NCBI GenBank assembly: GCA_037893245.1
Contig: JBAIAA010000095.1
Location: forward strand, 1,324,217 to 1,388,216
Length of the DNA stretch: 64,000 nt
From: Crossaster papposus
Lineage: Eukaryota; Echinodermata; Asteroidea; Velatida; Solasteridae
Direction: 5' to 3'
Of this stretch, positions 17,584 to 59,508 are shown piece by piece. Each line of letters opens with the position of its first letter. The stretch's first letter is position 1. The position numbers were made by a program, and so were the translations under genes. The notes beneath the pieces were generated by a model, which was not told the origin of the DNA, did not search any database, and saw nothing but the letters and a program-made list of their open reading frames with translations.

Positions 17584-17843
17584 CTAAGGTTGTTCCAACC
17601 GGTCGAAGTTTGGACAAAAGTCCGGCAGGGAGTTGCTGATGTCCTGGATGTTCTCCACCTGCGCTACGAGGTCGTCCAGGGAGAACTGGTAGGTGTCGAT
17701 CCACCCCTCTTGTTGCTGCTCGGCGTCGCGCAGGCCCTGCATGACCTGCTCGATGTTCAGGTCCTTCTCAAAGGTCCGCTTGACGTTGCCAAAGTCGTCT
17801 TCGATGTCCCGGAGGCGGTTGGGATCCAAGGGGTTCAGGGAAT
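17584..17843 (-). CDS. LAMC1: Laminin gamma exon 25 (last)
   Basis: Acceptor TTCTTCTTAG; first base group completes Asn of [11 protein letters not shown]. Encodes the end of the coiled coil, [14 protein letters not shown] and TAG (17584-17586). The Cys pairs with the beta chain in known laminins; the Glu of LEQP matches the gamma-1 IEKP Glu needed for integrin recognition. Confidence 0.96.
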
Positions 17844-44100: not shown

Positions 44101-47100
44101 CACCAAAATAAACTTTTCAAAAAATAAAAATAAAATATATACCCAAATATGGGAATAAACATATTACATGGCAGGGATTAACGATTTATGCAAATTAGAC
44201 ATATTTCCACCACTTGGATTTTTGTAGATTTTTAGTATGTAATTCTAGGAACCTTATAGAAGTGCACTGTGGTGATAAACAATTTGTTGTAATTTTTTTG
44301 AGGTCAAAACTTATTTTTCCTGGACTACAAGTATTTGGATGAACAATGACAAAGGAATGCTTTTGTCAACAGCTGATTTGAATAGCTTGTGATTTGAATT
44401 GGAACTGAAGAACTTGTGATGGACTTGTGATGGACTTGCAGGGACTTACAGGGACTTGTGACGGACTCGACTACATCCCTGAATAGTATTAGGGCTTTCC
44501 TCTTTGGTCTGAGTGCAGTGTTAATCTTTAAAGTCTTGTGTACAAAGAGAGCAAACTTACCTGGAGCAACAAAGTAGTAACGCCGGTTGTTATCGGACGC
44601 GACGCCAATGTCTCGACGGATGCTGTTATACGCCAGGATGCCTTCCTGACCGTATCGGCCTCTGGCTTGCCAACCTTCGTCACCTGGAGGAAGAAGAAGA
44701 ACCACAGACCATTAGGAATCAAGATCATTTAGTTATCCCACGAGATCCAGTAGAATACATTACCATTACAACTGTCAACCGCTGTGATGTGAAACGCCGT
44801 TTGATTTGCCATAATCCTTCTGCTAAATTTTCCAACGGTGCAATCAGAAATTTTGGCTATTTTTGTATGTGCCACGCCAAAAAGTTAACGGATTTAACAA
44901 AATCTAATGTCCTTTGCTCCCAATTTTGGTGTCCAAACATACCAAACATTGCTGTTGAAAATATTTTTAGAAATCCACAGGATATACTGAATGCTTTTTT
45001 AATTTTTAATTTATTTTTATCACAAGGCCAAAGGCCACTCGAGGTGTTGGCTACTAGAGGAAGGTGTGGAAGAACCAGCCCCTCACACTGAAACAAGACA
45101 TTCTGATCTCTTCACAGCACGAATAGGGTTGGGATGGGTAACTAGTCCACAGCAAGGCATTAATAATGCCTCTACCCATATTATGTGTGGAAGTGTCCTA
45201 GCCTAGGCAAGCCTAGAACCCCCAACCTGCAGAACTACCAACAGACCACGAATTCAATGCTCCTGACAACTGGGTAATGGCAATCCCACAAAATTTGGTC
45301 GTGTTTTTTTAAAAATTCCCGAACGTCAAACTTTGGTTGCCTAATATGTTAAAGATGGCACCTGATGGACCGGCAGCTGAAAATCGCTATACCGAACGAT
45401 CGATATACCAAACAAAATCTGTGGGTCCCATGATGTTCGTTATACCGGGGTTCTGCTGGACCTAAATGCCTGATAAACATAAATGACAAGGTAGTCTAGG
45501 CAAGGGATGCTTCATGTTGGTATCAATTTTGTTTCAAAACCTCGTTTTTAGAAATTGAAGGCGAAACTACGAAACGGTGCGGCACACATTCCTCCAGTTC
45601 AAATACTAACCCTAAACCACCCTGAATATGTCCAAATCCATTTTCCTGTTTTGAAGGAAGTTTGGCGGATTCAGGATACCTTCATTATTGAATACCGGTG
45701 GAATCTTTAATGGATTGAGGATTGTAAGCTTAGCGTTACTGCAGGATTTTAATAGATTCAGGATACCTCCATATTGAGCTAAGATAAAGTCACTAACACC
45801 AACTTTGTTGTGCATGAAAATATTGGTTGACTTTGGTGGACTCAGGAAACTTTATAGTAAAAGCATTCAAGAGGTTAGTTTAAACAAAATAGACCAGAAG
45901 AGTGTACCTGAATTGAACCTGCTCTGCAGATAGGAGAACTCGTATCCGGGAGCGGACGAACACTCAGAGGAGTGGCCATGACAGAAGCAAGACATGCAGC
46001 CAAAGGGGTCATCCTCCTGGAGATTGAAGTAACCCAACTTGCATCTAGAACAGAGAAAGAACAGGGAACGACGTTAATCAATGTAGGAGTGGCCATGACA
46101 GAGGCAGGACCTGCAGCCAAAGGGGTCATCCTCCTGGAGATTAAAGTATCCCAACCTGCATCTAGAACAGAGAGAGACAGAGAACAATGTTAATCAATGT
46201 AGGAGTGGTCATGACAGAGGCAGCACATGCACCCAAAGGGGTCATCCTCCTGGAGATTGAAGTAACCCAACTTGCATCTAGAACAGAGAGAGACAGAGAA
46301 CAATGTTAATCAATGTAGGAGTGGCCATGGCCGAGGCAGGACCTGCAGCCAAAGGGGTCATCCTCCTGGAGATTGAAGTAACCCAACTTGCATCTAGAAC
46401 AGAGATAGCGACAGAGAACAACGTTAATCAATGTAGGAGTGGTCATGACAGAGGCAGGACATGCAGCCAAAGGGGTCATCCTCCTGGAGATTGAAGTAAC
46501 TCAACTTGCATCTAGAACAGAGAGAGACAGAGAACAATGTTAATCAATGTAGGAGTGGCCATGACAGAGGCAGGACCTGCAGCCAAAGGGGTCATCCTCC
46601 TGGAGATTGAAGTAACCCAACTTGCATCTAGAACAGAGATAGTGACAGAGAACAATGTTAATCAATGTAGGAGTGGCCATGACAGAGGCAGGACCTGCAG
46701 CCAAAGGGGTCATCCTCCTGGAGATTGAAGTATTCAAGTGTTTTATTAAACAAATAATTGAATGTTTCACACTCGTGCGATGGAATAAATTATTTCATTA
46801 GGTGACAAACACACAAGTTACAAACATTCATTGGCATCATGTCGCAGAATTATAAAGGGTTGTGTCATAATGATAATAATTAGACTCCACTCCTACAAAC
46901 TATGCTGTTAAAGACCGTAAAAGAGAAAAACTTACGATCAAAAGAAAAGTACTTTTGTAAAAAAAACTTGATTGTTTTTTAGATTTTTTCCATTAATTTT
47001 TTGGTCAATTTTTTGTCAATTTTATTTTTCTTTTTTTTTCCATTTAATTTTTTTTTGTTTTAACTAATATTTTTTGTTTGCCCTTAAATATTTTAAACAC

Positions 47101-50100
47101 AATGCCGTGCCTACCTGTCACATCTGCGGTCTTCCACGTTGGTCTTACACTCACACAGTCCCGTGATGCTGTCACAACGTGGCTCACTGTTTACGCTGCC
47201 GGATACCAGACAATCACAGCTCCTGCAGTAAAAGGATCAAGGTAGGAAGATTACAAAACGTCCACATTATCCTAACGATAAATGTGACCGGCTCTACAAA
47301 AAAGGGTCTTAAGTCGCGCTGTGCACTATCATGTAATGGCCCGCTCAACGTTGAGAGGGTAAACATTTCATCAAAATGTGATTTTCCTTTTTTTTGTCAT
47401 GAATGACATATGTGACCCACCAGGACAAAACCAGACGGAAGTCGGCAAATGCCATTTCGAGATATGGCATTGTACACCAAAAAATGTGTTGCCGGTCGAT
47501 TTTTAATTTTTTTTATAAATCGTTAGTTAAAACTCTAATTTATAGGCTGTTCATGTTTAAACCTTTTTAAAAATCCCAGAAAGTGATAATATCGGCCTTC
47601 TTCTGATTTTTGTTGTCGTTGCTATTACTCAAATTGAGCAAACTTTGAAGCGTCGTTACTTTTCATTCGATAGCGGTACTGGTGTATCATTTTAAAGCTT
47701 AAAACGCTAGCAATCCAATGGTATAAAAATCTCTCATATGAACAATATTGACTTTAGCCTGGTTTTGGGGTGGTGGGTCACATATTTAATACCTACGGTT
47801 TAAGGTTTCATTAAAAGAAATGTTAATTTTGATGAATAAAGTGGACAAAAACGACAATTATGTGTGCATCGTTCTGTTGTAGTACAGCAGAGCCGGCTAT
47901 TTCAAAGCCTGTTTTCTCAGTTGTGTAGTTTGAACACGGCGTAAACACGTAGGGCCAAATTCATAAACAGTGATGATCACCGGATTATTTCAGTCGCGTA
48001 CAACTATTGTACTGTGGCTAAAATAATAATTGGCTGTTTATCCATCCGTGTACAAGTTCCTGCTTAGCCGATGTTTAGTGGTCTAGCCGTACATCATTCT
48101 ATTCACAGCGGATTACATAATATGTTGAACAAAAGGGCATATCTATCTTCGAAAACACGGTTAGCTCAGTTGACACTAGTGAGGGGGTCGCTATGTCGAA
48201 AAAACGCGCTGATAGTTTTACTCATGACCAGAAAATGGGTCTCATTGAGTGTGTAACGTAGGATAACAGTTCTTTCTGTGCCATTTCAATGATACGCAGC
48301 AGTTCCATGGCCATACGTCTGTCCTACAAGCAAAATGGTAACTTGTACACGAGATAAACAAGCCCCTTGGGACGTTTAACATTTCCTTTGTTACTTAGAC
48401 ACATGTCACTAACCATGTACGTTTGGTAAACAGCAGCTGATCTAAGCACTCTTTATGAATTTGGGCCTAGATTGGAACGTTCAATCATCAACTGTTTATA
48501 CACAGTTTAGCCTAGTTAATCGTGATCAAGGGAAAATCACCGTTTATGAATTTGGCCCGTTGCGTCTCCAAAATGAGAGGGGCTATGGATCTCTATTATA
48601 TACTAAATGAAAGCTTACGTTGTGAGCTTTCTTACCATGTACAGTTTATAACTCAATTTTTTCGCGACATAAGACACCTTTTTGTAGAGCCGGTCACAAA
48701 TGTGAGGGGTTCTGGCAAATGAGACGGAACTGGGCAGAGGTTTAAATGAGGGTTCTCAAGTAGTAAACAAAAAGGATAACATTCTCCTCACAATGCTGTT
48801 TCGTGTACTTTAATGGACATTCCAATAACAAGTTATAGGTTTTTTTAAAGTTTGCATTTATCAACATGTCGCAAAAGTAAAATATTGAGAAAAAGGCCTT
48901 TGAAGTTTCAAAAAGATCAGAATGTCTTGTTTCAGTGTGAGGGGCTGGTTCTTCCACACTTTCCTCTAGTAGCCCACACCTCAAGTGGCCTTTGACCTTG
49001 TAATGAGCGATTTGCATTAACAAAAAAATACAAAATACAAAAAAATAAGACAAGCTGGCAGTCCTGTGCTCGGCTTTAATCAGTGTGTTTCTTTTTGGGT
49101 CAGCATGTTTGCTTACACTCAGGGGATACAAATTTGACCTGGGAGGCTTTCAGCACAGCATGTCATGCTAGCACGGGAAGATAAATAAATAGGACAACCC
49201 AAGGACCGTTTCGAGCTTTAGGAGAATGTCAGTTCATCTCAATACAGATTTGTGACCAGCTCCACAAAAAAAAGAACGTTGGGAGGGTAAACATTTCATC
49301 AAAATGTGAATATATTTTTCAAGAATGACATCTTTAATACCTACAGTTTCAGGTTTCATTCAAAGAAATGTTGATTTTGATGAATAAAATGGACAAAACA
49401 ATCATTTTGTGTGCGTTGTTCTGTTGTTCAACAACAGAGCCGGCTATTTCAAAGCCCGTTTTCTCAGTTGTGTAATTTGAACTCTAAGGAAACAATCAAT
49501 ATGCAATCTTGTCGTATTTCCAGAACTGGAGGTGCTATGAAATTGTATTATATATATCAAATGAAAGCTTATGTTGTGGGCTTTCCAACCATGTATAACT
49601 CAATTTCACATTTTTGATGACATTTTTTGGAGTGTCGTGGCCGAGCGGTTAAGAGCTTGGTTTTCTGTTCCGCAGAGCGCGAGTTTGAGTCCCGGTGTCG
49701 ACACGTGTGTCCTTAAGCAAGGCAATTAAACCACTATTGCTTCGTCCTTCGGATGGGACGTAAAGTTGTAGGTCGAGTGTGTTGTATAATTTATAATGTG
49801 TGTATATATCTTTCCCATTATAACATTAATAAAATTGTATAATGCACGTAAAAGAACCCAGAACACTTATCGCTAAGAGAAGGGGTTTGCCCCGGTGTTC
49901 CTGGCTGACACAGCCTCTGTCTACGGGTTTCTTCTGGCTTACGAGCTACAGTGCCTTGAGCGCTTTTGAAGGATCCTTGGTTTCATTACCAGAAAATAAT
50001 AATAATAATACCCTTTTTTGTAGTGCGGGTGACATTTAGGGTTGACATTTTGGGCATGGCATAAATCTAAACTTTTTTAGGTATCCCTTTTATTTCTATG

Positions 50101-53100
50101 GTATGGTTCTCATATTGTTTTGTTTATACGCCAACAACTAGTCGACTCTGTCGTATAGATTGTGCAGAACTAACGTACGTGTACGTGATTGTATTGCACA
50201 GACTAGTTTTCTTCTGAAAGTTTGTGTTAATGATCTATGCACGCGCCGGAAGTTGGTTTGCGCGTTTCTTTTCAACAACTGTTTCCTCTAGCGGTAAAAA
50301 CAATCATGAAACAGCCATCAAATTGGTAGTTGCGATGCGCCTTTCATATTAAGATGGGTTTTAGTGAAATCGATTTTAGGACACGTCTTAGCCAAGCTCG
50401 ATCTTTGACCTCGGACTCGTTCTAAGACCTAAGATGAGTCGTATTAAGATAAGACGCGTTTCGTGAAATCGGCCCCAGATGACTTACGTGCATCCGGACC
50501 CGCTGAAGTCAAAATAGTTGGGTAGGCACTGGTTGCACTTCTCGCCGCCTACTCCTAGCTTGCATGTGCACTGCCCGCGACTGTTGCACTGTAGATGCAG
50601 TGAACCTGCAAGAACAACAAATAATAATAATTAGTTGATACATGTAGAGCTAAAATGTAATCAATAAAAAAAAATTAAATGTTCCACGGTCCAACAAGTT
50701 TTGTCATTTTCTCTCAATTTCTCAGGTGTTCTGGGCACAGGCTATAGAAGAGAAAAATGGAAATTAGTGAATAGTAGTTTTTTTCCAAATTTTCAGATTT
50801 ATTGATATTTGTAATCTTTGTTATGCCTACTAACCATATTTTTAAAGAAATAGTAAGAAAGTAGTGGCAAAAAAGTGTTTTTTTGAAAAAACGATAGGCA
50901 TTTTTCTATATCACATGTACAAAACTCGAAACTTCAAAGGCCTTTTCTGAATTTTTTACTTTGGGGACATGTTGGGAAATGCAAACTTTAAAAAAGCCAT
51001 AACTTGTTAATGGAATGTCAGATTGAAGTACAAGAAACGCCATTGTAAGGAGAATTTTATCCTCGTTTCTAATAGAATCCCTAATTTAACCTCTGCCCAG
51101 TTCTGTCTCAATTTGCCAGAACCCCTCACATTTGTCTTCGAAAAAGTCCCTGAAATCATCATAGGTACATTTGTATTTCCCAAAAATTGTAAAAAGACCA
51201 ATGCATTACACTACAGAGTGTGCCATATTAAATGAAAGCTTATTTCCTGCTTTTTCTGACCAACTGTAAAAAATTGAAAAAAAAAAGAAAAAAAAAATTA
51301 AACCCTTTTTTTTGCAGAGTGGGTCACATTTGACTGTTCGATTGAATCCGCGTTTGACAAATCAAATTGCTGAATTATCCGAACATGTTGCACGGCGGCG
51401 CTACAAACAACTCACCGACGGAGTCACAGTTGCACGGCTGGCATACGTCTCGCTGGGAGGACTGGTAGTAGTTGTCACGGCAACGCTCACAGTTAGGCCC
51501 GTCCGTGCTGCCCTGGCAGTCCTGGCAATGGCCGCCGTGGCCGGTGCGGTCGTAAAGGTCCTGGTCAAAGTAGCATCGGTTGGAACGCCCATTGCACTCA
51601 CAAGCTGTTGGGTCAAACACAAGACACACATTTATTTATATACATGCACCGGTATATTTACCCCTACCAACCCAAATCCTCCAAAATCCTTTTTGCAGAA
51701 ATGCAGAGTTTTGCAGGATCATTGAGGGCACTTGGAAGTTGATACATCGGAGGATTTTGCAAGATTGAGGGCATTTGGGGTTTTTGTCACTGGGATCCAG
51801 GTCATCAGGCCTAAACTAATGCTGGATGATTTTGCAGGATTAAGGTTACTTGGGTATTTATCTAAATGAGGATTTTGGAGGATTTTAATTTTTTTTTGAA
51901 TTTTTTTTTTCAAATTTCTTTTCGGCAATGAAACCGAGGATTCCTCAAAAAGCACCCAGGGCACTGTAAGCTCGTAAGCCTGAGAACACCTGAAGGAGGA
52001 TGAACGAAATGCCAGAAACACCGGGGCGAACCCCTTCTCTTAGCGATAAGTGTGACTGGGAGTTAGTCTTGCATATGCACTGTGGACCTCCGAACAATAT
52101 AGGTCCACACGATGCGGGAAGAGGTTACGGTTTGTGGACTTGCACACGTCCACAATCCGTTTTTCAGTTTCCGAAAAAGAGCGCTAGAGGAAAAACGGGT
52201 TAGGGTTACATGTATATATAGAAAAGATAGAAGGGACAGCTGAGAGGCCCATAATCCAAATTTGAGGGTAAATTTGTTTTGGGGAAGCGAGAAAAATGAG
52301 TATTTAGTCAAAGTTTGTTAACTACACGAAGACAAAGGAATGTCCACAGTGCGTATGTAAGGTAAAGCTATGTGTTCTTTTACGTGCGTGTCCAGGTTCA
52401 ATATATACAAAATACACACACACGGGACAAACGGCTTTACGTCCCATCCGAAGGACGAAGCAATAGTGGTTTAATTGCCTTGCTTAAGGACACACGTGAC
52501 GACGGCCGGGATTCGAACTCGCGCTCTGTGGAACAGAAAACACACGCTCTTAACCACTCGGCCACGACACTCCACAAGAGGATTGAGGTTATTTGTTACT
52601 TTGTATTTTCACACTGCTCATGCTCTACCTGGCATCACGAAATGAGCGGAAAGTCGCACACGGCCCAAACGAGTTATTGGCCGAAACGTCCATTTTTCAA
52701 GTGGCAGGTCGGTTTCGAGTTGTTAAATGTTTTTACATACAAAAAAACCTTCTTTATCAGATCCCAAAATTGTATAGCTCAATTAAAACTCTAAAGTGTG
52801 TTTTTTTGTGGCTGAATTGCACTGATTGATAGTATAGTTGGCACGGTTCACAGACTTTGAACTCCGTTTTCTCAAAACAAGGGAGCATGACTTCAGCTAT
52901 TTCAAAAGAGTATAGCGGGCGGCTAGGAATAAGCTACAGCAACACACAATACATCATTTGAAAGCTAAGGACTTCTTCTTTCTAGAAATGTAATAATGTC
53001 AACTTTTGTATTTTGCAACTTTCCACCCATTTCGTGAGGTCACCAATGCCCATTCTCCATATAGCTTCAGTCAAGGTGTAAGTTATGTGTCAAGGATAGG

Positions 53101-53742
53101 AAACGTTTGCGTACTAAGTGTCATGTGTGCAACCCCTTGTTGTAAAAGGGAACTTAGCAGCTGTTTGTTCCATGTTTGGCTGCTTTTATAACTCATTGGT
53201 AAACACACTGCAGGATTTTGCAGGATTCAGGCAGTGGTCACCAGTAATTTAATTATATTGGCGGATTTTGCAGGGTTCAGGTTATATGTGTAAGAAAAAT
53301 GGTTTATGGGGTAATATACGTGATTTTGCTAGTTGTTACAGCACCCTCATACATCCAGAAAATAGTCTTTTGGTTTGTGATAGACTTAAAAACAATTTGT
53401 ACAATGTGACTGGTTTTTCAATATCAACTTCTCTGTGAAAAGTCTTGGGTATCAAGTCAGTAAAAAGTCTTTGAGATAACCACTTCCGACCAGGTTGACG
53501 CCGGCCTAACAAACAACAACCAGTTTAGCCATCGGGCAAACAAATGTGAAACCACAATTTTTAATGGAGTAATTCAGCCAGCGACTAAAACAGCTCCGTG
53601 TTTCCCTTTGTTCAAATGGCTGTTTCCGTTTCCGATGACCAACGGCATTTCCTTTGCACCCAAAAAAACAAAAAACGACAAAACCCAAATTTGTAAATGG
53701 ATACCTTAGTAAATTTCCAATAAAAAAAAAAAAAAGTTTATG

Positions 53743-53775
<33 letters not shown>

Positions 53776-56700
53776 ATGAAAAAAAAAAAAAAAAAAAAAA
53801 TTGACAAAGCGTGCTTCCGCTCAACTAGAGCCAAATTGGTTGGCAAGTCTTCCTGGAAGAAAAAAATACCAAGATAGGGTCCGGAGCTAAAACTACAAGA
53901 CTAAATTGAGATTTCTTGGTATCATTTTTCTTCTTGAAAAATTCACAATCCATTGGTACAGTTGAACGCCGCTATACCGAACACCGGTATACCGAACATT
54001 CGGCTATACCGAACACATCCTTGACTTCTGATTTTTATGTCCAAACATACTAACAATTATTGTTAAAAATACGTCAACAATTTTTTAGAAATTCACTGTG
54101 TATATAAATGATATTTAGACCGTGTTTTATTCCCGAAATTTTGTATTCCCCGACCACACGCCATTCTGGTGTTCATGACTTCTGACTAGCGCACTCGAAC
54201 AAAGATACTGACATTTTGGGAGACCGCCAACATAGGGCAGGATAGCTCAGTTGGTAGAACGCCGGTCCGGTATTCCGGAAGGTCGCAGTTTTTTTAGTCC
54301 CGCCTTGCCAATTTCTTTGTTCACTTTGAAAATAAAAATGTTCTCTAGATATAAAACAAAATAATCAACCTTGCCTACTACTAGTTCTGGGATTTACATG
54401 TAAAACTAAATTTTTCAATATTTGGTTTTAATTCCACTATTCGGTTTCGATTTTGAAAACCGAATTTTCGAAACCAACTTAAAAAAAGTTTAGTCTTTCA
54501 TTTTTGTGTGACACAGGCTGAAGAAGACAATTGTAACATCTTCCAATTTGCTCCATGGCCCCCGATTGTACTAGTGGTTTTATTATTAGCCAGCCCATTT
54601 GACTGAATTTGTGAGTTCCCATTCATTTTGTCCCCGCATCACAGCTCTGGGGTGTTTTTGTAAAGACCCAGTGGTCACTGAATCATCCCCACTATAACCA
54701 GTCATTGAGAGGGCATTTCTTGTTGCAAATCACTCATTACTTTTTAGCTGTTATGATTGTGAGCTGGGCCCAATTTCACGACGCTGCTTAACAGTTAGCG
54801 GAAAAGTTGTGCTAACTTTAGCAGACAAATTTGCTAACCTTAAGCGCTATTTTACGGCGTTTTTGTGCTAACGTTTGCGCGCGCATGGAGATTCTACTGT
54901 TACGTCACTGATTTAAAGGTAGTATACACCATTTGCAGATATCGAAAAAATTTACTACCAAATTATTAAGAAATATCTTACTCATTTGAAAGTAAATAAT
55001 GATTGTAGGCATCCAGCAAAACGATTGCCCTAGATATCCTGTAATTATTCCAAAAAATTGAATTGTATAAACCAAGATTCATTATCGCCGGACGGAGATC
55101 GCAAAAAAACAAAAACAACATAAGAAAAACTGCCTGATTTCGGTTGAAAACGAAAGTCGTTTTTCTTGCTTTTCTCAGCAACCATGATTGTAAAACTTCG
55201 GACAGGTCAGTTTTTTAATATGAAATATAACCCCCTAAATCCACCCATTCATGATAATTCAAGCAGTTACCAATGGTGTATACTACCTTTAAGAATTTTT
55301 TTTTTTTTTAAGCGTGCTTTTTGCTGTGCTTACTGCTTACGGTCCCCATGAAATAGACGGAGGCTCGGTCAGCAGAAAATCGTGTGCTTAGTAGCGCTGT
55401 GAAATTGGGCCCTGGATTAGAACCCTAGAAAAATCAAATAATCGATATTCAGTTCGAAGAAAAAAAACAAATTAGGATAACCGGATTCGGATAACCGGAT
55501 TTCGAAATCTCCGATTTCTCCCACCACTACCTACCACTACTACTACACGATGTAAATCTAGGAGATTCCTGTGAGGTTGTTGATAGTAACAGTGAATAGT
55601 CAACAAACTGTGGACCACGCCGTGTTGATATAGGAAGCTAGGTGATGAGTATAGGACCATCTAGGGTCAGAAAACTAGTACCGACTTAAAAGGTAGGATA
55701 CACCATTTTTGACCAGCTCTACAAAATGTCGCGAACAAATGAAATTGAGTTATATACATGGTTAGAAAGCCCACAGCGTAAGCTTTCATTTAGTATATAA
55801 TAGAGATCCATAGCCCCTCCCATTTTGGAGACACGACGTGTTTACATATTGATTACTTTCTCAAAGTTTAAATTACACAACTGAGAAAACAGGCTTTGAA
55901 ATAGCCGGCTCTGTTGTACTACAACAGAACGATGCACACAAAATGGTAATTTTTTCCAGTGTATTTATCAAAATCAACATTTCTTTTAATGAAACCTTAA
56001 ACTGTAAGAATTAAAGATTTTATTCATGACAACAAATAAAAATCACATTTTGATGAAATGTTTACCCTCTCAACGTTGAGCGGGCCATTACATGATAGTG
56101 CATAGCGCGACTTAATACACCTTTTTGTATAGCCGGTCACATTTGCAGATATCAAACAATTGTTAATAATAATTCCAGGCATCCAGCAAAAGTATTGCAC
56201 TAGATATCCTGTAATTGTTCTGTAAAATCGAATAAAAAAAATTTTTAAAAAATTATGATCGCCGGACGGCGATCGCGAAAAAACCCCAAGCACCATAAGA
56301 ACCAATGCACGATGTCGATTAAAAACGACCGCCGTTTTTTCTTGCCTTTCTTGGCATTCATGATTGTAAAACTTCGTACAGGTCAGTTGTAGGATACACC
56401 ATTGATAATTGCTTGAATTATCAGAAATAGGTGGATTTGGGGGTTTGTATTTTGTAGTAAATATCGTTTAACTGACCTGTCCGAAGTTTTACAATCATGG
56501 ATGCCGGGAAAAGCACAAAAAACAGCATTTATTTTCAACCGGTGTCGAGCAATCATTCTTATGTTATTTTTGGTTTTTTTGCGATCGCTGTCCGGCGAAT
56601 CGCGAATTTTGTTTTATACAATTCTATTTTTCTGAATAATTATTACAGGATATCTAGCGCAATAATTTTGCTGGATGCCTAGAATCATTATTTACTTTCA

Positions 56701-58259
56701 AATGAGTAAGATATTTCTTAATAATTCGGTACTCAGTAGTAAATATTTTCGATATCTGCAAATGGTGTATCCTACCAAAACACAAACAACATAAGAACCA
56801 CTGCTCGACGCCGGTTGAAAACAAACGCCGTTTTTTTTGTTGCTTTTTTTCGGCATCCATGATCGTAAAACTTCGGACAGGTCAGTTAAACGATATTTAA
56901 TATAAAATACAACCCCCCAAATCCACCCATTCATGATAATTGAAGCAATTACCAATGGTGTATCCCACCTTAGAATAAAACAAAAAAGTTTTCCACTTCC
57001 GCCAAGTCTGCCGAACATCTGCGTTTACTGTACAACATGGAAACGAAAACATCTGGAGGATTTTTCTACCAATGAATGCATGAATGCATAATTGTTGGCA
57101 TATACCCGTTACATGTACTTGACAGTTCGTTTTATTTATATAATTATATTAGTTCATCCATTTTTTATTTCTGTGGTCCTCACATTTTTGTTTGCCTCTT
57201 AAAAGTAGAATTGGTAAATGTTTGAATTATCATGGGTGGATGTAAAGGTAGGATACACCATTGGTAATTGCTTGAATTATCAGGAATGGGTGGATGTAAA
57301 GGTAGGATACACCATTGGTAATTGCTTGAATTATCAGGAATGGGTGGAATTGAGGGTTGTATTTTGCAGTAAATATCGTTCAACTGACCTAGGTACAAAG
57401 TTTTACAATCATGGATGCTGAGAAAACCCAGAAAAACAGTAGTGGTTCTTAGGTGTATCCTACAGTACTTTTAATTCCCAAACGTTAAAGTACCGGTGCT
57501 TTATGTTAAAGATGGCACCTGATGGACCGCAGGACCGGTAACTGAAAATCGCAAACCGAGCGATTGATATACTGAACAAAATCTGTGGATCTTGTGATGT
57601 TTATTATAGAGGCATTCGACTATCAAGTGTACTGTAACCCATATGAATGCCTAGGACGTTGGAGTAAAAAAAAAAAAAAGACAAGCCAAAAATCGGAGTC
57701 ACTTTTCCCCAGATCAGAATATTTCTCTTTTACAATCTTTCTGTGTGTACTGTGCAGAGGTAAAGTCTAAATATTATCATATCAGGGGGACGTTATATAG
57801 TTCTGCCAACAAGTCATAGTACAAAAAAGTAAAAAGAAAATAAATTGCCCTCAACCAAAAAGTTAAGAGGAGAATTTTTTTTTTTTAATTTGATACCTTT
57901 CAAAAACAAAATTATTTGGACGAGAAACTATTTTTTTTTTTACTGTATCTTTTTTTTATGTTTAAATTGACGACAAATTTCATTTATAAATGTTGTCTAA
58001 CTGGTATATTTTCATTATTTGAAATCTATTTTTCCTTTTCCAAAAACTTACCAAGGCATATTTTGTTTTAATTTATAGATCCACATAATCACATATAAAT
58101 GTACAAATAATAGTTTTAAACAAATCTTCACGAGGCTAAATAAAAAAACAAATTTTGGTTACCTTTCCACTGTGCACCGTCCCAAAACCAATATCCACAT
58201 GTCAGCGATAAACACTGAAGGAACAGAAGAATCCTAATGCTGCTAGGATAAATCACCAT
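17584..58259 (-). CDS. LAMC1: Laminin subunit gamma, LN-less (whole gene, 25 coding exons)
   Basis: Twenty-five exons join to 3936 nt, 1311 residues plus stop; every splice phase closes. The secreted protein would form the gamma arm of a basement-membrane laminin heterotrimer. In order: signal peptide (1-22), a short [10 protein letters not shown] linker, three LE modules (33-about 200), the laminin IV (L4) domain (about 200-375) inserted in a split LE module, six more LE modules (to about 722), CPAC at the start of the coiled coil (724-727), and a long coiled coil to the C-terminus. The chain ends with Cys1302 and Glu1309, third from the end. NIDENAV (531-537) answers the nidogen-binding NIDPNAV of gamma-1. 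The LN domain and LE1 (about 300 residues of human gamma-1, 1609 aa) are absent, as in vertebrate gamma-2 (1193 aa). Whether LN exons further upstream feed an alternative transcript cannot be seen. Sequence similarity is closest to gamma-1. Confidence 0.95.
17995..18236. repeat. TTAA-type MITE, copy 4 (laminin intron 24)
   Basis: TTAACCAGTTCGCGCGGGAT at left, TCCGGCGCGAACTGGTTAA at right; fills most of the 0.44 kb intron. Confidence 0.85.
18285..18384 (-). CDS. LAMC1: Laminin gamma exon 24
   Basis: Phase 0 in, 1 out. Encodes [15 protein letters not shown] and QDLMDAL, coiled coil. Acceptor TTTTCAG, donor CTCA|GTAAGC. Confidence 0.94.
18385..18726. other. Laminin intron 23, array-distal part
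   Basis: AT-rich; no element recognised between the exon 24 acceptor and the start of the 11-bp minisatellite. Confidence 0.4.
18727..19535. repeat. 11/22-bp minisatellite in laminin intron 23
   Basis: About 35 tandem 11-bp units CTGGAGAGGTC (18727 to about 19105) change into a 22-bp dimer CTGGAGAGGTATCGAAGAGG TC from about 19106 to 19450, then degenerate (GTCTTAGAGAG). The array ends about 30 bp from the exon 23 donor. In the sense of the gene it reads CCAGGACCTCT, giving many AG dinucleotides after pyrimidines. Open frames on both strands are spurious. Confidence 0.95.
19566..19724 (-). CDS. LAMC1: Laminin gamma exon 23
   Basis: Phase 0 to 0; starts [15 protein letters not shown] after TTTTTAAG and ends DDDSQLIQQ before GTAGGT. 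Coiled coil; one NATQ sequon. The first AG available in frame is TTAAG, not the later GGGAG. Confidence 0.93.
19850..19950. repeat. Short minisatellite related to the 16.8 kb foldback array
   Basis: About six units of AAATTCACATCCTCTTCC, the same unit as at 16832-17070, followed directly by a TTAA MITE. Confidence 0.8.
19958..20209. repeat. TTAA-type MITE, copy 5
   Basis: TTAACCAGTTCGCGCCGGGA at left, CCGGCGCAAACTGGTTAA at right. Lies 4 bp from copy 6, in the same orientation. Confidence 0.85.
20214..20399. repeat. TTAA-type MITE, copy 6 (deleted)
   Basis: TTAACCAGTTCGCGCGGGGA at left and TCCGGCGCGAACTGGTTAA at right, 186 bp; lacks the segment with GATCCGAGGCGGGTT and has a small CGGGAAGCACAC duplication. 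Confidence 0.85.
20401..20605. repeat. Partial foldback element next to exon 22 donor
   Basis: Related to 16771-17244: contains GAAATCACATCCTGCTAAGG and four AATTTGGAAGAGGATGT units. Its right arm ends about 25 bp from the exon 22 donor at 20628. Confidence 0.65.
20629..20828 (-). CDS. LAMC1: Laminin gamma exon 22
   Basis: Phase 1 in, 0 out; encodes [20 protein letters not shown] and [16 protein letters not shown]. Aligns with human gamma-1 FDRRVNDNKTAAEEALRKIP. Donor GAG|GTAAAC. Confidence 0.95.
20829..21330. other. Laminin intron 21, first part
   Basis: Holds a C run (about 12) near 20957 and otherwise no recognised element before the SINE. Confidence 0.35.
21331..21734 (+). repeat. tRNA-derived SINE, family 1 (plus)
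   Basis: Head ATGGCCGAGTGGTTAAGAGC and GAGTTCGAGTCCCTG (A- and B-box-like), then CCTTAAGCAAGGCACTTAAC, GTAATGCACGTAAAAGAACC, and tail CTATATAAGAACTGCC with TATTATT. The most complete copy of the family here. Confidence 0.85.
21971..22085 (-). CDS. LAMC1: Laminin gamma exon 21
   Basis: Phase 0 in, 1 out; [17 protein letters not shown] and [12 protein letters not shown]. Acceptor TTTATAG, donor TTAG|GTAAGA. Coiled coil. Confidence 0.93.
22380..23440. repeat. 148-bp tandem repeat filling laminin intron 20
   Basis: Seven copies with ACCTGTT landmarks at about 22425, 22575, 22723, 22871, 23018, 23165 and 23313. Each unit contains CTGATGGCTGCCATTTGTT, CATACTTCAGTAACC and ACCAGGCCTGGTACC. In the sense of the gene each full unit carries two donor-like motifs, AACAG|GTAACT and CCTG|GTAAGC. 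Confidence 0.9.
23500..23622 (-). CDS. LAMC1: Laminin gamma exon 20
   Basis: Phase 0 to 0, 41 residues; [19 protein letters not shown] and [10 protein letters not shown]. Acceptor TTTCAG, donor AACAG|GTAAGC. Coiled coil. Confidence 0.95.
23764..24005. repeat. TTAA-type MITE, copy 7
   Basis: Cleanly bounded by TTAA on both sides: TTAACCAGTTCGCGCCGGAT to GGCGCGAACTGGTTAA. A good reference copy (242 bp). Confidence 0.9.
24006..24651. other. Laminin intron 19, purine-rich stretch
   Basis: Purine-rich on the plus strand, with a 16-base G run at 24301-24316; no repeat family or exon recognised. Confidence 0.4.
24652..24826 (-). CDS. LAMC1: Laminin gamma exon 19
   Basis: Phase 2 in, 0 out; begins at TGAAG|CTACGGC completing Asp, then [17 protein letters not shown] and ends ATDIKEQ before GTACAG. 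Coiled coil. Confidence 0.93.
25079..25420. repeat. tRNA-like SINE halves in reversed order plus foldback
   Basis: The 3' tRNA-like half (GGAGGTCGCAGGTTCGAGTC, CCGCCTTGCC) is at about 25106-25140; the 5' half (AGGTCAGTTGGTAGAGCGCC) comes later, at 25386-25410. The same SINE is in normal order at 54140-54345. The 3' half lies in a hairpin, GAACAAAGAAAT / ATTTCTTTGTTC, itself inside a longer inversion AATACACAAATAAACCG (25079) / CGGTTTATTTGTGTATT (25193). Confidence 0.6.
25421..25530. repeat. 9-bp minisatellite in laminin intron 18
   Basis: About 13 copies of AGATCCCGG, continuing from the tRNA-like 5' half at its GGTATCCC, so it seems to have grown out of the anticodon region of the SINE. It ends about 55 bp from the exon 18 donor. 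Confidence 0.9.
25586..25720 (-). CDS. LAMC1: Laminin gamma exon 18
   Basis: Phase 2 to 2; [18 protein letters not shown] and [11 protein letters not shown]. Acceptor GCCACAG, donor GGA|GTAAGT. Coiled coil. Confidence 0.93.
25895..27135. repeat. CCAGCC-based complex minisatellite in laminin intron 17
   Basis: Over 1.2 kb of interleaved CCAGCCAGCCTGCCAAT-type units built from a CAGC/CCAN tetramer theme. It starts irregular on the left (AAGTTAGCC interruptions) and is most regular at 26500-27000. It ends about 40 bp from the exon 17 donor. All three plus-strand frames are open for long runs; none is a gene. Confidence 0.95.
27177..27357 (-). CDS. LAMC1: Laminin gamma exon 17
   Basis: Phase 1 in, 2 out; [19 protein letters not shown] through ARDLAAG; NDTA and NMSE are sequons. 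Acceptor TTCCACAG, donor CTGG|GTAAGG. Confidence 0.94.
27358..27848. other. Laminin intron 16
   Basis: Contains diverged direct repeats around AACCCTGCCAGACGCAG (about 27553) and its inverse CTGCGTCTGGCAGGGTT (about 27773), the ends of a 240-bp inverted-repeat element not seen elsewhere in the window. Confidence 0.45.
27849..27977 (-). CDS. LAMC1: Laminin gamma exon 16
   Basis: Phase 1 to 1; [20 protein letters not shown] and [16 protein letters not shown]; one NVS sequon. Acceptor CTTCCAG, donor GAAG|GTGAGT. Confidence 0.94.
28060..28383 (+). pseudogene. Non-LTR retrotransposon reverse-transcriptase C-terminal fossil
   Basis: One frame reads [20 protein letters not shown], then [14 protein letters not shown], a TGA stop, [10 protein letters not shown] and finally [12 protein letters not shown]-like [11 protein letters not shown] before TAG. 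This is the typical end of LINE ORF2 proteins (AARFVxxDYSRxSSVTxML, W-LxxRR, IPxWNxLP). Only 108 codons remain with one stop, in laminin intron 15, antisense to the gene. Not functional. Confidence 0.75.
28384..29022. other. Laminin intron 15, remainder
   Basis: Probably begins with the 3' UTR of the LINE fossil. A CTCTCCCTCTCCCCCTCC pyrimidine tract is near 28860. No exon seen. Confidence 0.4.
29023..29214 (-). CDS. LAMC1: Laminin gamma exon 15 (start of coiled coil)
   Basis: Phase 1 to 1; opens with [20 protein letters not shown], matching human ECPACYRLVKDKVADHRVKL. The two Cys make inter-chain disulfides at the trimer neck. Acceptor CCCGTAG, donor GTAG|GTAAGA. Confidence 0.97.
29277..29400. 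repeat. 10-bp minisatellite in laminin intron 14
   Basis: Twelve near-perfect copies of CGATCCTCCC. It lies 62 bp upstream of the exon 15 acceptor in the sense of the gene (GGGAGGATCG), one of the few arrays nearer an acceptor than a donor. Confidence 0.95.
29401..30165. other. Laminin intron 14, remainder
   Basis: About 29400-29480 is a dispersed AGAATTTTGCAGGA-type repeat also seen at 51660 and 53210; 29490-29524 is a fragment of the GGTAGGATACACC family. The rest holds nothing recognised. Confidence 0.4.
30166..30303 (-). CDS. LAMC1: Laminin gamma exon 14 (LE module)
   Basis: Phase 1 to 1. The acceptor is TTGGTAG, not the later TGCAG, because only it gives the LE spacing [12 protein letters not shown]. 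Ends [12 protein letters not shown] before CATAC|GTAAGC. Confidence 0.93.
30304..30600. other. Laminin intron 13, SINE-derived left flank
   Basis: An (AAT)n run near 30333 and a partial family-2 SINE head (about 30500-30607: GTGGGTTCGAGTCCAGCCTG) that runs straight into the G-rich array at its CCACCCAGGG. Confidence 0.55.
30601..31470. repeat. G-rich minisatellite in laminin intron 13
   Basis: About 870 bp of 18-21-bp units: GGTTGGGGAGGTTGGGAAGG, then GTTGGGGAAGGAGTGAAAGA G, then GTTGGGGGAGGTTGTGAAGG blocks. The plus (template) strand has continuous runs of 2-5 G with short loops. The pre-mRNA carries the C/T-rich complement. Ends about 90 bp from the exon 13 donor. ORFs up to several hundred codons on both strands are spurious. 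Confidence 0.95.
31562..31852 (-). CDS. LAMC1: Laminin gamma exon 13 (two LE modules)
   Basis: Phase 1 to 1, 97 codons; [20 protein letters not shown] and [18 protein letters not shown], ending [10 protein letters not shown]. Human gamma-1 has GCERCDCHALGSTNGQC here. Donor CAGT|GTGAGT chosen by phase and LE spacing. Confidence 0.96.
32126..32494. repeat. Inverted-repeat element, GGTAGGATACACC family
   Basis: AAAGGTAGGATACACCATTT at left, CAATGGTGTATCATACCTTT at right; opposite orientation to the copy at 2111. Confidence 0.75.
32659..33034. repeat. TTAA-type MITE, inverted head-to-head dimer (copy 8)
   Basis: Both ends are the same family end (TTAACCAGTTCGCCCGGGAT and its complement with ATTATCCCGGTGCGAACTGGTTAA), and TTTATGCGTCATCCGTTTTG meets its inverse at about 32830-32870. 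It is a 376-bp near-perfect palindrome of two fused MITE copies. Confidence 0.85.
33191..33303 (-). CDS. LAMC1: Laminin gamma exon 12 (LE module)
   Basis: Phase 2 in, 1 out; [20 protein letters not shown], identical in 11 of the first 13 residues to human [16 protein letters not shown] region. The Tyr of CIYN also contacts nidogen in gamma-1. Acceptor ATGCAG, donor AGAC|GTAAGT. Confidence 0.97.
33333..33728. repeat. Inverted-repeat element, TGTGACCTGTCATCACAAAA family
   Basis: Ends TGTGACCTGTCATCACAAAA and TTTTGTGATGACAGGTCACA. Further copies at 61278 and 63211. Directly abuts the next element. Confidence 0.8.
33729..34150. repeat. Inverted-repeat element, TGTGACCGGCTCTACAAAAA family
   Basis: Left TGTGACCGGCTCTACAAAAA, right TTTTTGTAGAGCCGGTCACA; contains AACGTTGAGAGGGTAAACAT. 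Other copies at 47283, 49248, 55708 and 62154. Confidence 0.8.
34429..34558 (-). CDS. LAMC1: Laminin gamma exon 11 (nidogen-binding LE module, first part)
   Basis: Phase 1 in, 2 out; [20 protein letters not shown], then [23 protein letters not shown] aligns with the gamma-1 nidogen-binding NIDPNAV; Asp, Asn and Val, the residues shown to matter in gamma-1, are kept. Acceptor ATACAG, donor ACAG|GTAAAA. Confidence 0.97.
34648..35345. repeat. 12/24-bp minisatellite in laminin intron 10
   Basis: About 33 copies of 12-bp CAAGCGCGGTCC (34648 to about 35045; very CpG-rich) change into a 24-bp unit, CCAAATCCAAACCCAAGTCC GGTC, from about 35070 to 35340. The array ends some 15 bp from the exon 10 donor. 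In the pre-mRNA the donor-side part gives repeated GGACTTGGGTTTGG, a G-triplet-rich sequence. Confidence 0.95.
35361..35549 (-). CDS. LAMC1: Laminin gamma exon 10 (LE modules)
   Basis: Phase 1 to 1, 63 codons; [33 protein letters not shown] and [10 protein letters not shown], closely matching human [26 protein letters not shown] and CTNCPTGTTG. Donor GTGG|GTAAGT. Confidence 0.97.
35655..35955 (+). repeat. tRNA-related SINE, family 2, 5'-truncated
   Basis: Shares GTGCCCTTGGGCAAGGCACT, GCAGCATTGAGCTGTATACT and CGCTATATAAGAACTAACAA with the copy at 10815; ends in (TTA)n. Confidence 0.8.
36243..36742. repeat. TTAA-type MITE, copy 9, internally expanded
   Basis: TTAACCAGTTCGGGCCGGAT to GGCGCGAACTGGTTAA, 500 bp. 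Between about 36331 and 36630 the unit AAATGTCTGTCAGCAGCGAG CAAGGCCGG (29-30 bp) is repeated about ten times, against one or two in other copies. Confidence 0.9.
36910..37140 (-). CDS. LAMC1: Laminin gamma exon 9 (end of L4, LE)
   Basis: Phase 1 to 1, 77 codons; [17 protein letters not shown] closes the L4 domain, then [15 protein letters not shown] and [15 protein letters not shown]. Human: SCTCPVGYGGQFCEMC, CACNGHSETCDPETG. Acceptor CTACACAG, donor TCAG|GTGACT. Confidence 0.96.
37230..37476. repeat. hAT-like MITE, copy B
   Basis: 247 bp from CAGGGTTGTAGTCGAGCCCC to GGACTCGACTACATCCCTG, flanked by perfect 8-bp repeats CTTAAAAG (37222-37229 and 37477-37484). The cleanest target duplication of the family. 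Confidence 0.9.
37494..37737. repeat. Foldback element, GGGGCCAATTTCAT family
   Basis: GGGGCCAATTTCATCTAGCT at left, AGCTCCATGAAATTGGCTC at right, with GCTTAGCA inversions inside. Confidence 0.8.
38230..38658. repeat. Inverted-repeat element, TGTGACCTGGCACCACGAAA family
   Basis: TGTGACCTGGCACCACGAAA at left, TTTCGTGGTGCCAGGTCACA at right. A second copy in opposite orientation at 52626-53043. Confidence 0.8.
38820..38932 (-). CDS. LAMC1: Laminin gamma exon 8 (L4)
   Basis: Phase 2 in, 1 out; [20 protein letters not shown] then [18 protein letters not shown]. Human: LHEATDYPWRPALTPFEFQK LLNNLTSIKIRGTYSE. Donor GGAG|GTAAAA. Confidence 0.96.
38933..39990. other. Laminin intron 7, first part
   Basis: 39293-39416 is half of a TTAA MITE. 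About 39410-39800 holds diverged tandem segments (TTGTCCGACCGTCTTCCCTC and TTGTCCGACCAGTCTTTCCT; GGGGTACC motifs). About 39835-39890 is a triple AATGACCCATAAATGACCT repeat. No exon. Confidence 0.45.
39990..40262. repeat. Foldback element related to 16771-17244, without array
   Basis: Left arm ATTCAAAGCGGACACGGTCC and TTAGCAGGATGTGATTTCAA; right arm is the inverse, TTGAAATCACATCCTGCTAA and GGACCGTGTTCGCTTTGAAT. Arms about 65 bp. Confidence 0.85.
40357..40804. repeat. GGGGCCAATTTCAT foldback split by a TTAA MITE
   Basis: Left GGGGCCAATTTCATAGAGCT, right AGCTCTATGAAATTGGCCCC, a perfect 20-bp inversion. It is interrupted at TTAA by MITE copy 11 (40554-40783); removing it restores GTGCTTAAGCAGC. 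Confidence 0.85.
40554..40783. repeat. TTAA-type MITE, copy 11 (nested)
   Basis: TTAACCAGTTTGAGC at left (diverged), CAGCGCGAACTGGTTAA at right. TTAA duplicated on both sides of the insertion. Confidence 0.85.
40898..41087 (-). CDS. LAMC1: Laminin gamma exon 7 (L4)
   Basis: Phase 1 in, 2 out; [42 protein letters not shown] and LPQTYTF. Human: KFLGKQVLSYGQNLSFSFRV, AEDLVLEGAGLRVSVPLIAQ. Donor CAG|GTTGAT is weak but protein continuity (TF-R-LREED) needs it. Confidence 0.95.
41173..41426. repeat. TTAA-type MITE, diverged copy 12
   Basis: Keeps GGGATTATTTTGAAATTGAC, GACGGGTTTAGGCCGG and ACATGAACTGGTTAA; left TTAA end eroded. Next to the following element. Confidence 0.65.
41427..41814. repeat. 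Inverted-repeat element, GGTAGGATACACC family
   Basis: AAAGGTAGTATACACCATTG to AATGGTGTATCCTACCGGTA; same interior as the copy at 2111. Confidence 0.75.
42005..42170. repeat. Dispersed repeat shared with 14985-15140
   Basis: CTACACCGTACAACACGGCC, GCTGCACGCTCAAGTCCATT and CATGCATATAATCCGGTGCA correspond in order to the sequence right of the 21-bp minisatellite. Confidence 0.6.
42455..44327. mobile_element. Large palindromic element
   Basis: TAGTCCAGGCAAAATAC at left mirrors TTATTTTTCCTGGACTA at right. The arms match over about 600 bp (for example TTATGAGAACATAGTAATTA against TAATTACTGTGTTCTCATAA), with the centre near 43090 between GTTCAAGGAAACCC and GGGGATTTCCTTGAAC. No transposase. Arms have diverged by several percent. 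Confidence 0.8.
43437..44064. mobile_element. Foldback element inside the right arm of the palindrome
   Basis: TAAAGGCCCAGTCCCATTGC at left, GCAGTGGGACTGGGCCTTTA at right. The interior is built from ACGCATAAATC and GTGCGTG / CACGCAC motifs in both orientations. Flanks suggest a TTA target duplication. Confidence 0.8.
44561..44683 (-). CDS. LAMC1: Laminin gamma exon 6 (L4)
   Basis: Phase 1 to 1; [20 protein letters not shown] and NRRYYFVAP. Human: DEDGWRAEQRDGSEASLEWS, FPRYFIAP. Acceptor CCTCCAG, donor CCAG|GTAAGT. Confidence 0.95.
44684..45907. other. Laminin intron 5
   Basis: About 45020-45115 (GCCACTCGAGGTGTTGGCTA, GAACCAGCCCCTCACACTGA) recurs inverted at about 48925-49005. About 45355-45460 (GATGGCACCTGATGGACC, CGCTATACCGAACGATCG) is a dispersed repeat also seen at 57495 and partly at 53960. 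No exon. Confidence 0.45.
45908..46044 (-). CDS. LAMC1: Laminin gamma exon 5 (LE4 / start of L4)
   Basis: Phase 2 in, 1 out. [19 protein letters not shown], then [19 protein letters not shown] and LQSRFNSG. Human: CKPGFFNLESSNPRGC, FCFGHSSVCTNAVGYSVY. Acceptor CTGTTCTAG, donor TCAG|GTACAC. It is the only copy in the 46 kb array that continues into L4 and has a donor. Confidence 0.97.
46045..46740 (-). repeat. Tandem array of exon 5 fragments with splice acceptors
   Basis: Units of 116-118 bp. Acceptors followed by ATGCA(A/G)GTTGGG lie at 46161, 46277, 46393, 46511 and 46627; a sixth copy (about 46655-46735) lacks the acceptor. Each holds TTCTAG, the first 76 bp of exon 5 ([16 protein letters not shown]...CHGHS), then TACATTGATTAA, a stop, instead of the rest of the exon, and about 40 bp of intron. 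Copy 46277 has changed CHGHS to CHDHS. Confidence 0.95.
46741..47114. other. Laminin intron 4, donor side
   Basis: AT-rich with T-rich runs near 47000-47090. Nothing else recognised. Confidence 0.4.
47115..47222 (-). CDS. LAMC1: Laminin gamma exon 4 (LE module)
   Basis: Phase 2 to 2; [20 protein letters not shown] and [15 protein letters not shown]. Human: SCDPSGSIDECNVETGRCVC. Acceptor ACTGCAG, donor ACAG|GTAGGC. Confidence 0.96.
47283..48700. repeat. TGTGACCGGCTCTAC element with two nested elements
   Basis: Outer ends TGTGACCGGCTCTACAAAAA (47283) and TTTTGTAGAGCCGGTCACA (48700). Inserted are 47411-47782 (TGTGACCCACCA / TGGTGGGTCACA) and 47953-48559 (GGGCCAAATTCATAAACAGT / CGTTTATGAATTTGGCCC). 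Confidence 0.75.
48701..49247. other. Laminin intron 3 stretch
   Basis: 48925-49005 is the inverted partner of 45020-45115. Nothing else recognised. Confidence 0.35.
49248..49620. repeat. TGTGACCGGCTC element, truncated
   Basis: Shares GAGGGTAAACATTTCATCAA and GAGCCGGCTATTTCAAAGCC with the copy at 33729; right end missing. Confidence 0.65.
49628..50010 (+). repeat. tRNA-derived SINE, family 1 (plus)
   Basis: GTGTCGTGGCCGAGCGGTTA AGAGC head, GAGTTTGAGTCCCGG, CCTTAAGCAAGGCAATTAAA, and a short internal duplication near 49790-49845. Confidence 0.75.
50488..50605 (-). CDS. LAMC1: Laminin gamma exon 3 (LE module)
   Basis: Phase 1 in, 2 out; [20 protein letters not shown] and [16 protein letters not shown]. 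Human: SLSTQCDSYGRCSCKPGVMG. Acceptor TTGCAG, donor GCAC|GTAAGT. Confidence 0.96.
50606..51415. other. Laminin intron 2
   Basis: AT-rich; the segment around 50880-51320 resembles an inverted-repeat element (GAGTGGGTCACA at 51318), not delimited. No exon. Confidence 0.35.
51416..51604 (-). CDS. LAMC1: Laminin gamma exon 2 (first LE module present, LE2-like)
   Basis: Phase 1 to 1; [27 protein letters not shown], matching human gamma-1 PCDCNGRSQECYFDPELYRS TGHGGHC, the second LE module. Acceptor CCCAACAG, donor GTCG|GTGAGT. It joins exon 1 (ending AAAG) as Lys-Ala-Cys in frame. Confidence 0.97.
51605..52011. other. Laminin intron 1, exon 2 side
   Basis: Diverged tandem units of about 62-75 bp around GGAGGATTTTGCA(A/G)GATT (51660-51890), a dispersed repeat also at 29400 and 53210. 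No LN-domain coding sequence seen. Confidence 0.5.
52012..52577 (-). repeat. tRNA-derived SINE, family 1 (minus), with an insertion
   Basis: Minus-strand head GTGTCGTGGCCGAGTGGTTA at 52575 going down; body ends near 52012. Interrupted at about 52066-52360 by an element with ends CTTGCATATGCACTGTGGAC and GTCCACAGTGCGTATGTAAG. Confidence 0.7.
52626..53043. repeat. Inverted-repeat element, TGTGACCTGGCACCACGAAA family, copy 2
   Basis: CCTGGCATCACGAAATGAGC at left and CACCCATTTCGTGAGGTCAC at right; opposite orientation to 38230. Confidence 0.75.
53044..54139. other. Laminin intron 1 stretch
   Basis: Two poly-A tracts near 53721-53800 separated by the repeated AGTTTATG, and a CGCTATACCGAAC repeat near 53970. 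No exon, in particular no LN-domain sequence. Confidence 0.45.
54140..54345 (+). repeat. tRNA-related SINE, family 3 (intact order)
   Basis: GGGCAGGATAGCTCAGTTGG TAGAAC is a clear tRNA 5' half; the T-arm part has a run of T in place of GTTCGAG. Followed by CTTGCCAATTTCTTTGTTCA. The anticodon region is GGTCCGGTATTCCGG. Too damaged for a tRNA gene. Confidence 0.65.
54767..55413. repeat. Foldback element interrupted by a GGTAGGATACACC element
   Basis: GGGCCCAATTTCACGACGCT at left and GCGCTGTGAAATTGGGCCC at right. The inner element spans about 54915-55291 (AAAGGTAGTATACACCATTT / AATGGTGTATACTACCTTT). Confidence 0.7.
55688..57470. repeat. Cluster of GGTAGGATACACC elements
   Basis: At least four copies or parts: 55688 to about 56395 (split by a TGTGACCGGCTC element at 55708-56149), 56391-56776, 56776-56976 (partial) and 57241-57470, where a 56-bp GGTAGGATACACCATTGGTA unit is duplicated. 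Confidence 0.7.
57471..58162. other. Laminin intron 1, exon 1 side
   Basis: 57490-57620 is a GATGGCACCTGATGGACC dispersed repeat. The rest is AT-rich with poly-A and poly-T runs. No coding sequence. Confidence 0.4.
58163..58259 (-). CDS. LAMC1: Laminin gamma exon 1 (signal peptide)
   Basis: ATG at 58259-58257 in a strong context (GTCGCCATGG). Encodes [22 protein letters not shown], a good signal peptide, then [10 protein letters not shown] and one base, and donor AAAG|GTAACC. Phase 1 fits exon 2 exactly. In-frame Met codons further upstream (58370) would put a long hydrophilic stretch before the hydrophobic core and are less likely. Confidence 0.8.
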
Positions 58260-59508
58260 GGCGACAGAAACAACTTCACTTCTCCCTCCGACAGAATAAT
58301 AAAAGTCCCACTCCAACAGTTTCAACGAAAGTTCCAGCAAATCCACAAAAAAGTTTCCGAAAAACGGCAAATAAATTTATCCGACCCAGAAAAAGTAATT
58401 ACTCCCACAGAAAAATCCTGCCACCGAAAGTAAAAAGAAGTTTGAGCAATCAATAAAATTCAACGACGCGTAAAAGAATTACGTCCAAAAAAAAAATCGC
58501 TCAGAAAAAATAATTTCACTTCAACAAATCAGAATAAACCTAAACGTACTCCAGCCAAAAAATATCGCTCTCCGACAATTGAAAGTAAGTTCAAGCAATT
58601 AACGAATCCAGCGGTGAGTTTCAGAAAATAATCGTACTCCAAGAAAAATAATTCTACTCCAACAAAATAATTCTACTCCAAGACAAATTTATCTCCATTC
58701 GACAGTTTGAAGTAAGTTTAGGCGATCAACAAATCCAGATTTAGTTTTCAGCAAACTTTGAAAAACTGTAGTTTAACACAGAACACACCAACAAAACTAC
58801 CAAAATCACAAAGACATTGTCAGGAAGGACTAGCGGTTTCAAAGACAGTAGGGCGACTCTCTAAAAGTCTCAAAGGCAGTTGAGATGGATACTGAAACCA
58901 GCTCAAACTTTGAGTAGTTACAGAGCGAAAGTGACGTCGAGAATTCCTCACCGGGTAAGACAGAAAGGTTATGAAGCAGAAACCACAATCGCCAAAGCGA
59001 AGAATGTTGATTTACATAGCAGTACCCTAGCGTAGCTGTCTAACTGAACCCAACAAACAAGATGCACTGGAGTTTGCAGAACTCATGAAGGTCGCGGCTT
59101 AAAACTTCTGAAACAGTAGTTAGTAGCAGAGAGAGATCCTCATCCAAAAATAAACCGGTGCAGCCTCATAAACAAAACAGACTGGTGCTTTTTGAAGACT
59201 TGGGTTTCACAGCAGAGAGGTTGTACACGCAGTAGCTGTATTTACCCAGATGCACCAAGTGTATAAAAGGCAATTTTCTCATGAAGGTTCTGGCTTAAAA
59301 AAAAGTTCTTAAACATGAATTAGCTGCAGAGAGAAGTTCTCGTCCATAAAGACTAGTGCATCATCATGACAAAAAAAACTGGTGCTTTTAAAGACTGAGA
59401 GCGAAGAACATGTCTGACCCAGGTGAGAGTGATACAGGGTGATCTGGAGTACGTCTAATGAAGCCTGCGGCCAAATTTCACGCAGGGCAGAAACCAGCTG
59501 CCAACCGC
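58260..59508 (-). promoter_or_regulatory. Laminin 5' UTR and upstream region with tandem duplications
   Basis: 58420-58740 has diverged repeats around GAAAGTAAGTTCAAGCAAT (near 58432, 58581 and 58704) with ATAATTCTACTCC between. 59081-59205 and 59281-59395 are a diverged duplication (CATGAAGGT, GGCTTAAAA, GCAGAGAGA, ACTGGTGCTTTT). A TGACGT motif is near 58931. The transcription start cannot be placed. Confidence 0.4.

Follow-up and report, generated by a model that had tools for sequence, protein, structure and literature searches.

Does this locus encode a laminin gamma chain that has lost its LN domain, or is it part of a longer gene? The window, the whole stretch of 64,000 nucleotides analysed here (C95:1324217-1388216), carries a minus-strand gene in which a signal-like exon is followed by LE2. 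The original prediction read this as a gamma chain without LN that falls outside the gamma-2 lineage, arising either from an independently truncated gamma gene or from a second promoter of a longer gene with LN exons beyond 64 kb. Were a second lineage to have a gamma chain without LN, this would bear on the evolution of non-polymerising laminins. Gamma-2, alpha-3A and alpha-4 are described as lacking LN in PMC11260871 and PMC8388930 (basement membranes in general are treated in PMC11200632), and no invertebrate gamma isoform without LN was reported in the excerpts of the literature searched. Our analysis indicates that the window very probably carries the 3' part, from LE2 through the C terminus, of a conventional gene of the laminin gamma-1 type that includes LN, with the 5' part on contig C111. 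The apparent loss of LN is most likely an artefact of a contig end that splits an ordinary gene.

The gene body and the end of its contig

A tblastn search of the window with human gamma-1 matched LE2 and what follows it: L4, more LE repeats, segments of the coil and the C terminus. Splicing of 14 exons of the window, from 51604 to 29023, gave the short arm and the start of the coil, and the exon phases were consistent. Exon 2 (51604-51416) has CCCAACAG before it and GTGAGTTG after it. The solved structures that best matched the spliced body were 1npe, a laminin gamma-1 chain, and 1klo, a laminin; perlecan and laminin beta-1 came next. By its sequence the body is gamma-1-like, in agreement with the resemblance originally noticed. 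A laminin B domain (L4, PF00052) is present inside the LE repeats (PF00053). The body carries NIDENAV at residue 499, inside the part matched to 1npe (437-596), and we take this stretch to correspond to NIDPNAV, the nidogen-binding stretch of gamma-1. The C terminus reads ..RLEQP and then stops, which places Glu third from the end, and it was aligned by tblastn to ..SIEKP of human gamma-1. A review links a Glu third from the C-terminal end to integrin binding (PMC11260871).

Coordinates of the laminin gamma-type exons and related features. Positions refer to the window unless a contig is named.
Feature	Position	Strand	Basis
Exon with signal peptide and first LN part	C111:43279-42853	-	PF00055 match and flanking sequence, splice
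LN exon	C111:27736-27435	-	PF00055 match and flanks, splice
LN end exon	C111:8790-8660	-	PF00055 match and flanks, splice
LE1 exon	C111:6128-5950	-	flanking sequence of LN matches, splice
C95 part of LE1-LE2 intron, to contig end	51605..64000	-	contig end; repeats in last 1.8 kb
Putative signal-peptide exon 1	58163..58259	-	open frame, phase-1 donor; inside LE1-LE2 intron
LE2 exon (exon 2), phase 1 at both ends	51416..51604	-	tblastn, splice; would continue C111 LE1
LE3 exon	50488..50605	-	tblastn, splice
LE4 exon, first part	47115..47222	-	tblastn, splice
LE4 exon, second part, copy carrying the frame on	45908..46044	-	splice; adjoins decoy-copy tandem array
L4 (laminin B, domain IV) exon a	44561..44683	-	splice, Pfam
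L4 exon b	40898..41087	-	splice; sole match found in genome
L4 exon c	38820..38932	-	splice
L4 end and LE5	36910..37140	-	splice
LE6 to LE7 exon	35361..35549	-	splice
Exon with NIDENAV stretch	34429..34558	-	splice; within part matched to 1npe/1klo
LE9 exon	33191..33303	-	splice
LE10 exon	31562..31852	-	splice
LE11 exon	30166..30303	-	splice
Coiled coil start	29023..29214	-	tblastn, splice
C-terminal coil, gamma-1 end, ..NFDRLEQP then stop	17584..17847	-	upper end is tblastn boundary

The gene is accompanied by several tandem repeats. At 45968-46760, the beginning of the second LE4 exon part and its acceptor side are repeated in seven tandem copies, in units of about 117 bp. Over 92 bp, five copies are 92 to 96% alike to the gene's own copy and the outermost 76%. 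Translations of five of the six other copies hit a stop after HSYID; the copy at 46044-45908 continues the gamma frame. The tandem copies are an array of decoy exons. Minisatellites lie within the gene or flank its 3' part at 13936-14944, 18727-19537, 26015-27131, 30628-31450, 34647-35345 (which stops 15 bases short of the LE6-LE7 exon end) and 36324-36629, and in several of them more than one reading frame is open over a long distance.

The absence of LN and LE1 from the window, as first claimed, was borne out. In the tblastn search with gamma-1, neither LN nor LE1 had a match of its own with E below 1; what appeared were cross-matches among LE repeats. The Pfam LN model (PF00055) had no match on C95. 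However, C95 is 1,388,216 bases long, and base 64000 of the window is therefore the end of the contig, 5.7 kb above the putative exon 1. Because the window and C95 end together, the 5' side of the gene is cut by the assembly, and because C95 stops at base 64000, the absence of LN upstream was read from 5.7 kb only. The final 1.8 kb of C95 contains repeats also found on tens of other contigs, and such repeats are a usual cause for a contig to stop. Among the copies of this last 1.8 kb (106 matches listed; best 40 of 7,786 candidates scored), no contig bridged the end of C95.

A gamma-type LN and LE1 half on a second contig

The original prediction had named a genome-wide LN search as a check, and we carried one out with PF00055. 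In the 1.02-Gb genome PF00055 gave 21 matches, of which three were on C111, one was on C5 and 17 were on other contigs. The three C111 matches are all on the minus strand. The LN-LE1 sequence spliced from them and their flanks (305 residues) scored 449.7 bits against laminin gamma-1 (4aqt) and 316.9 bits against netrin-1 among PDB sequences. Judged by its sequence, the C111 half is laminin gamma-1. Among the LN matches examined, C111 carries the only LN of gamma type. This LN is followed by LE1 on a contig separate from the window, and its bearing on the window gene is conditional on the join of C95 and C111.

Several observations bear on this join. First, the gene half on C111 points out of the start of its contig, and the window gene enters over the end of C95. 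A tblastn search with gamma-1 found no LE2 in C111:1-5950. In addition, the LE1 exon ends in CAA G immediately before GTAAGC, in phase 1, exon 2 of the window begins with CT TGT GAG, also in phase 1, and the two join in frame. Human gamma-1 reads ..ASECLPCDCNGRSQECYFD.. at the equivalent LE1-LE2 join. The LE1 donor and the LE2 acceptor are both intact. Splicing the C111 exons to the window exons gave 1,100 residues free of stops, in which Pfam recognised LN, laminin EGF (PF00053) and laminin B (PF00052) domains. Finally, the LE2 exon had one 100% match in the genome, on C95 (the next matches were 44% on C162 and 31% in the C5 netrin), and L4 exon b had a single match, on C95. This uniqueness of the body refers to the two exons searched, each with one gamma-type match, and to a search that scored best candidates only.

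From these frames, phases and orientations we infer that C95 and C111 are neighbours and that one gene extends over the two contigs. The signal peptide, LN and LE1 would then have been assembled as the start of a separate contig. Of the first proposals, one combined LN exons of a longer gene beyond 64 kb with a second promoter. The C111 exons support its LN half; a promoter near 58.2 kb would be a hypothetical addition. The claim of an LN-less chain outside the gamma-2 lineage is not supported, given a gamma-type LN and LE1 on C111 and single body matches on C95. The other proposal, that LN and LE1 were lost independently as in vertebrate gamma-2, draws on the window alone, where a signal-like exon precedes LE2 in the gamma-2 layout. 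It is highly improbable given a gamma-1-type LN and LE1 half that stands without a body of its own in the C111 sequence analysed, lies at the start of that contig, fits in orientation and phase, and has no second gamma LE2 or L4 found for it in the genome.

Another explanation is that a break or translocation left two separate genes, an LN-only fragment on C111 and an LN-less chain on C95, and the junction itself is indeed absent from the assembly. Two separate genes would call for another gamma body, that of C111; none was found in the searches with LE2 and L4 exon b. Moreover, both pieces end at contig ends, with repeat-rich DNA on the C95 side, the orientation and intron phase match, and the splice sites on either side of the gap are undamaged. 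We consider this explanation very unlikely. For the single split gene, the chain is predicted to act like other gamma-1 chains, forming a trimer via its coil, binding nidogen via its short arm and polymerising via its LN domain.

An overlap between the end of C95 and the start of C111 was considered and rejected, as the two have only repeat families in common. A dispersed repeat family (..AAAGGTAGGATACACCATT.. / ..GGTGTATCCTACCTTT..) has many copies in the C95 part of the LE1-LE2 intron (window ~54.9-57.5 kb) and at the start of C111 (C111:1-8610).

The second gamma-like LN, on C5, was rejected as a gamma laminin, with 474.5 bits against netrin-1 and 328.4 against gamma-1. Its LE2 at C5:4098112, 22.7 kb downstream of LN, scored 128.2 bits against netrin-1 and 34.8 against gamma-1 (4aqt). 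No gamma-1 match was found in the 10 kb directly 3' of the C5 LN exon. This netrin gene (C5:4073071-4076775) holds a signal-like start, LN and LE1 in one open frame, with LE2 near C5:4098112.

The other 17 PF00055 matches lie on C162 (2), C641 (2), C43 (1), C210 (3), C298 (3), C120 (2), C28 (1), C830 (1) and C803 (2). All except C298:614173-614355 were compared with gamma-1 by tblastn, and some pieces gave no match. The LN parts of these 16 resembled gamma-1 weakly, with identities of 25.7 to 37%, although on C210 and C298 short runs of 35 to 45 residues reached 40 to 46%. Stretches that include LE1 reached 34 to 52%. The LN of C162, the source of the 44% LE2 match, was 26 and 37% identical to gamma-1. 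As a group, the matches are taken as other chain classes. C210 and C298 carry LN-LE1 pieces of another class that are alike in their aligned parts, and C210, which is 45,937 bases long, may represent an alternative haplotype of C298.

The open frame at 58.2 kb

Given an LN-bearing first half on C111, the putative signal-peptide exon at 58163-58259 lies inside an LE1-LE2 intron of at least 18.3 kb (C95 and C111 parts together). The coordinates, splice sites and phase first described for it hold on the sequence. The frame leaves one extra base (phase 1) before a GTAACC donor and joins exon 2 in frame. The start context is a Kozak GCCATGG, and the donor is good. The frame and its donor are present, but the exon is putative: at loose thresholds the window contains 11 similar frames (an ATG, a hydrophobic start and a phase-1 donor), itself included, 7 on the minus and 4 on the plus strand. 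With slightly different limits the number was 10.

We compared the 18.3 kb intron with 200 first-order Markov resamplings of it at four settings, and the intron itself held one frame at every setting. At loose thresholds, the mean was 1.31 frames per resampled intron and 69% held at least one. Requiring a strong Kozak context lowered these values to 0.12 and 11%, and thresholds set by the candidate lowered them to 0.125 and 10%. Candidate thresholds combined with Kozak gave a mean of 0.03, with at least one frame in 3% of resampled introns, at thresholds picked after the candidate was known.

A second, internal promoter could account for this frame. Transcripts from about 58.3 kb would then yield a secreted gamma isoform that lacks LN, alongside the full-length chain, an addition to the split-gene explanation that does not contradict it. 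The well-formed frame, its rarity at the strictest setting and the alternative promoters that LAMA3 uses, according to PMC8388930, all speak for it. The 801-bp surroundings turned up nowhere else in a genome search, which passes over simple repeats and very common words. The sense strand above the frame is also G+T-rich: 21 of 1,274 windows of 300 bp, itself included, are as high, and all of the 25 most G+T-rich windows except this site overlap tandem arrays. A decayed 20-bp tandem repeat was rejected as the source of this stretch, being clear at 58623-58688 only and not reaching the ATG.

The 300 bp above the frame have 36% GC and 13 CpG, similar to the 37% GC and 9 CpG above the first exon of C111. 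This likeness would suit a promoter, but since the values are alike above both candidate first exons, base composition does not decide the status of the frame. The idea that a CpG-rich promoter marks the true first exon was rejected, as the GC-rich DNA (up to 63%) is the C111 coding exon itself (58% GC); with this argument gone, an alternative first exon at 58.2 kb becomes slightly more likely. Against an internal promoter stand the frequency of such frames at the loose and intermediate settings, the post hoc choice of the strict thresholds and the presence of comparable frames on both strands of the window. We therefore regard an internal promoter as rather unlikely and the open frame at 58163-58259 as probably fortuitous, or an alternative first exon at most. 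If true, an internal promoter would let one gene produce polymerising and non-polymerising chains, as a gamma counterpart of LAMA3, and would offer a possible route to gamma-2-like chains.

Comparison with known laminins

Where a domain loss is read from a single window or contig, the contig ends and the remainder of the assembly need to be checked. Netrin-1 has LN and LE1 of gamma type, as does the C5 gene, which is separate from the window gene; netrins are not known to have an L4 or a coil. The window alone, with a signal-like exon and then LE2, resembles laminin gamma-2 (LAMC2). In contrast to LAMC2, the gene would have LN and LE1 exons, those on C111, if the two contigs join; their gamma-1 type was set by comparison with netrin-1. 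The alpha-3A and alpha-3B products of LAMA3, an alpha chain, provide the model for a short LN-less chain made via an internal promoter (PMC8388930). The joined gene is most like laminin gamma-1 (LAMC1), with which it shares the signal peptide, LN, LE, L4, LE with NIDENAV, the coil and Glu third from the C terminus. It differs from LAMC1 in its large repeat-filled introns and in the decoy-copy array at the second LE4 exon part; in domain order, no difference was seen between the two.
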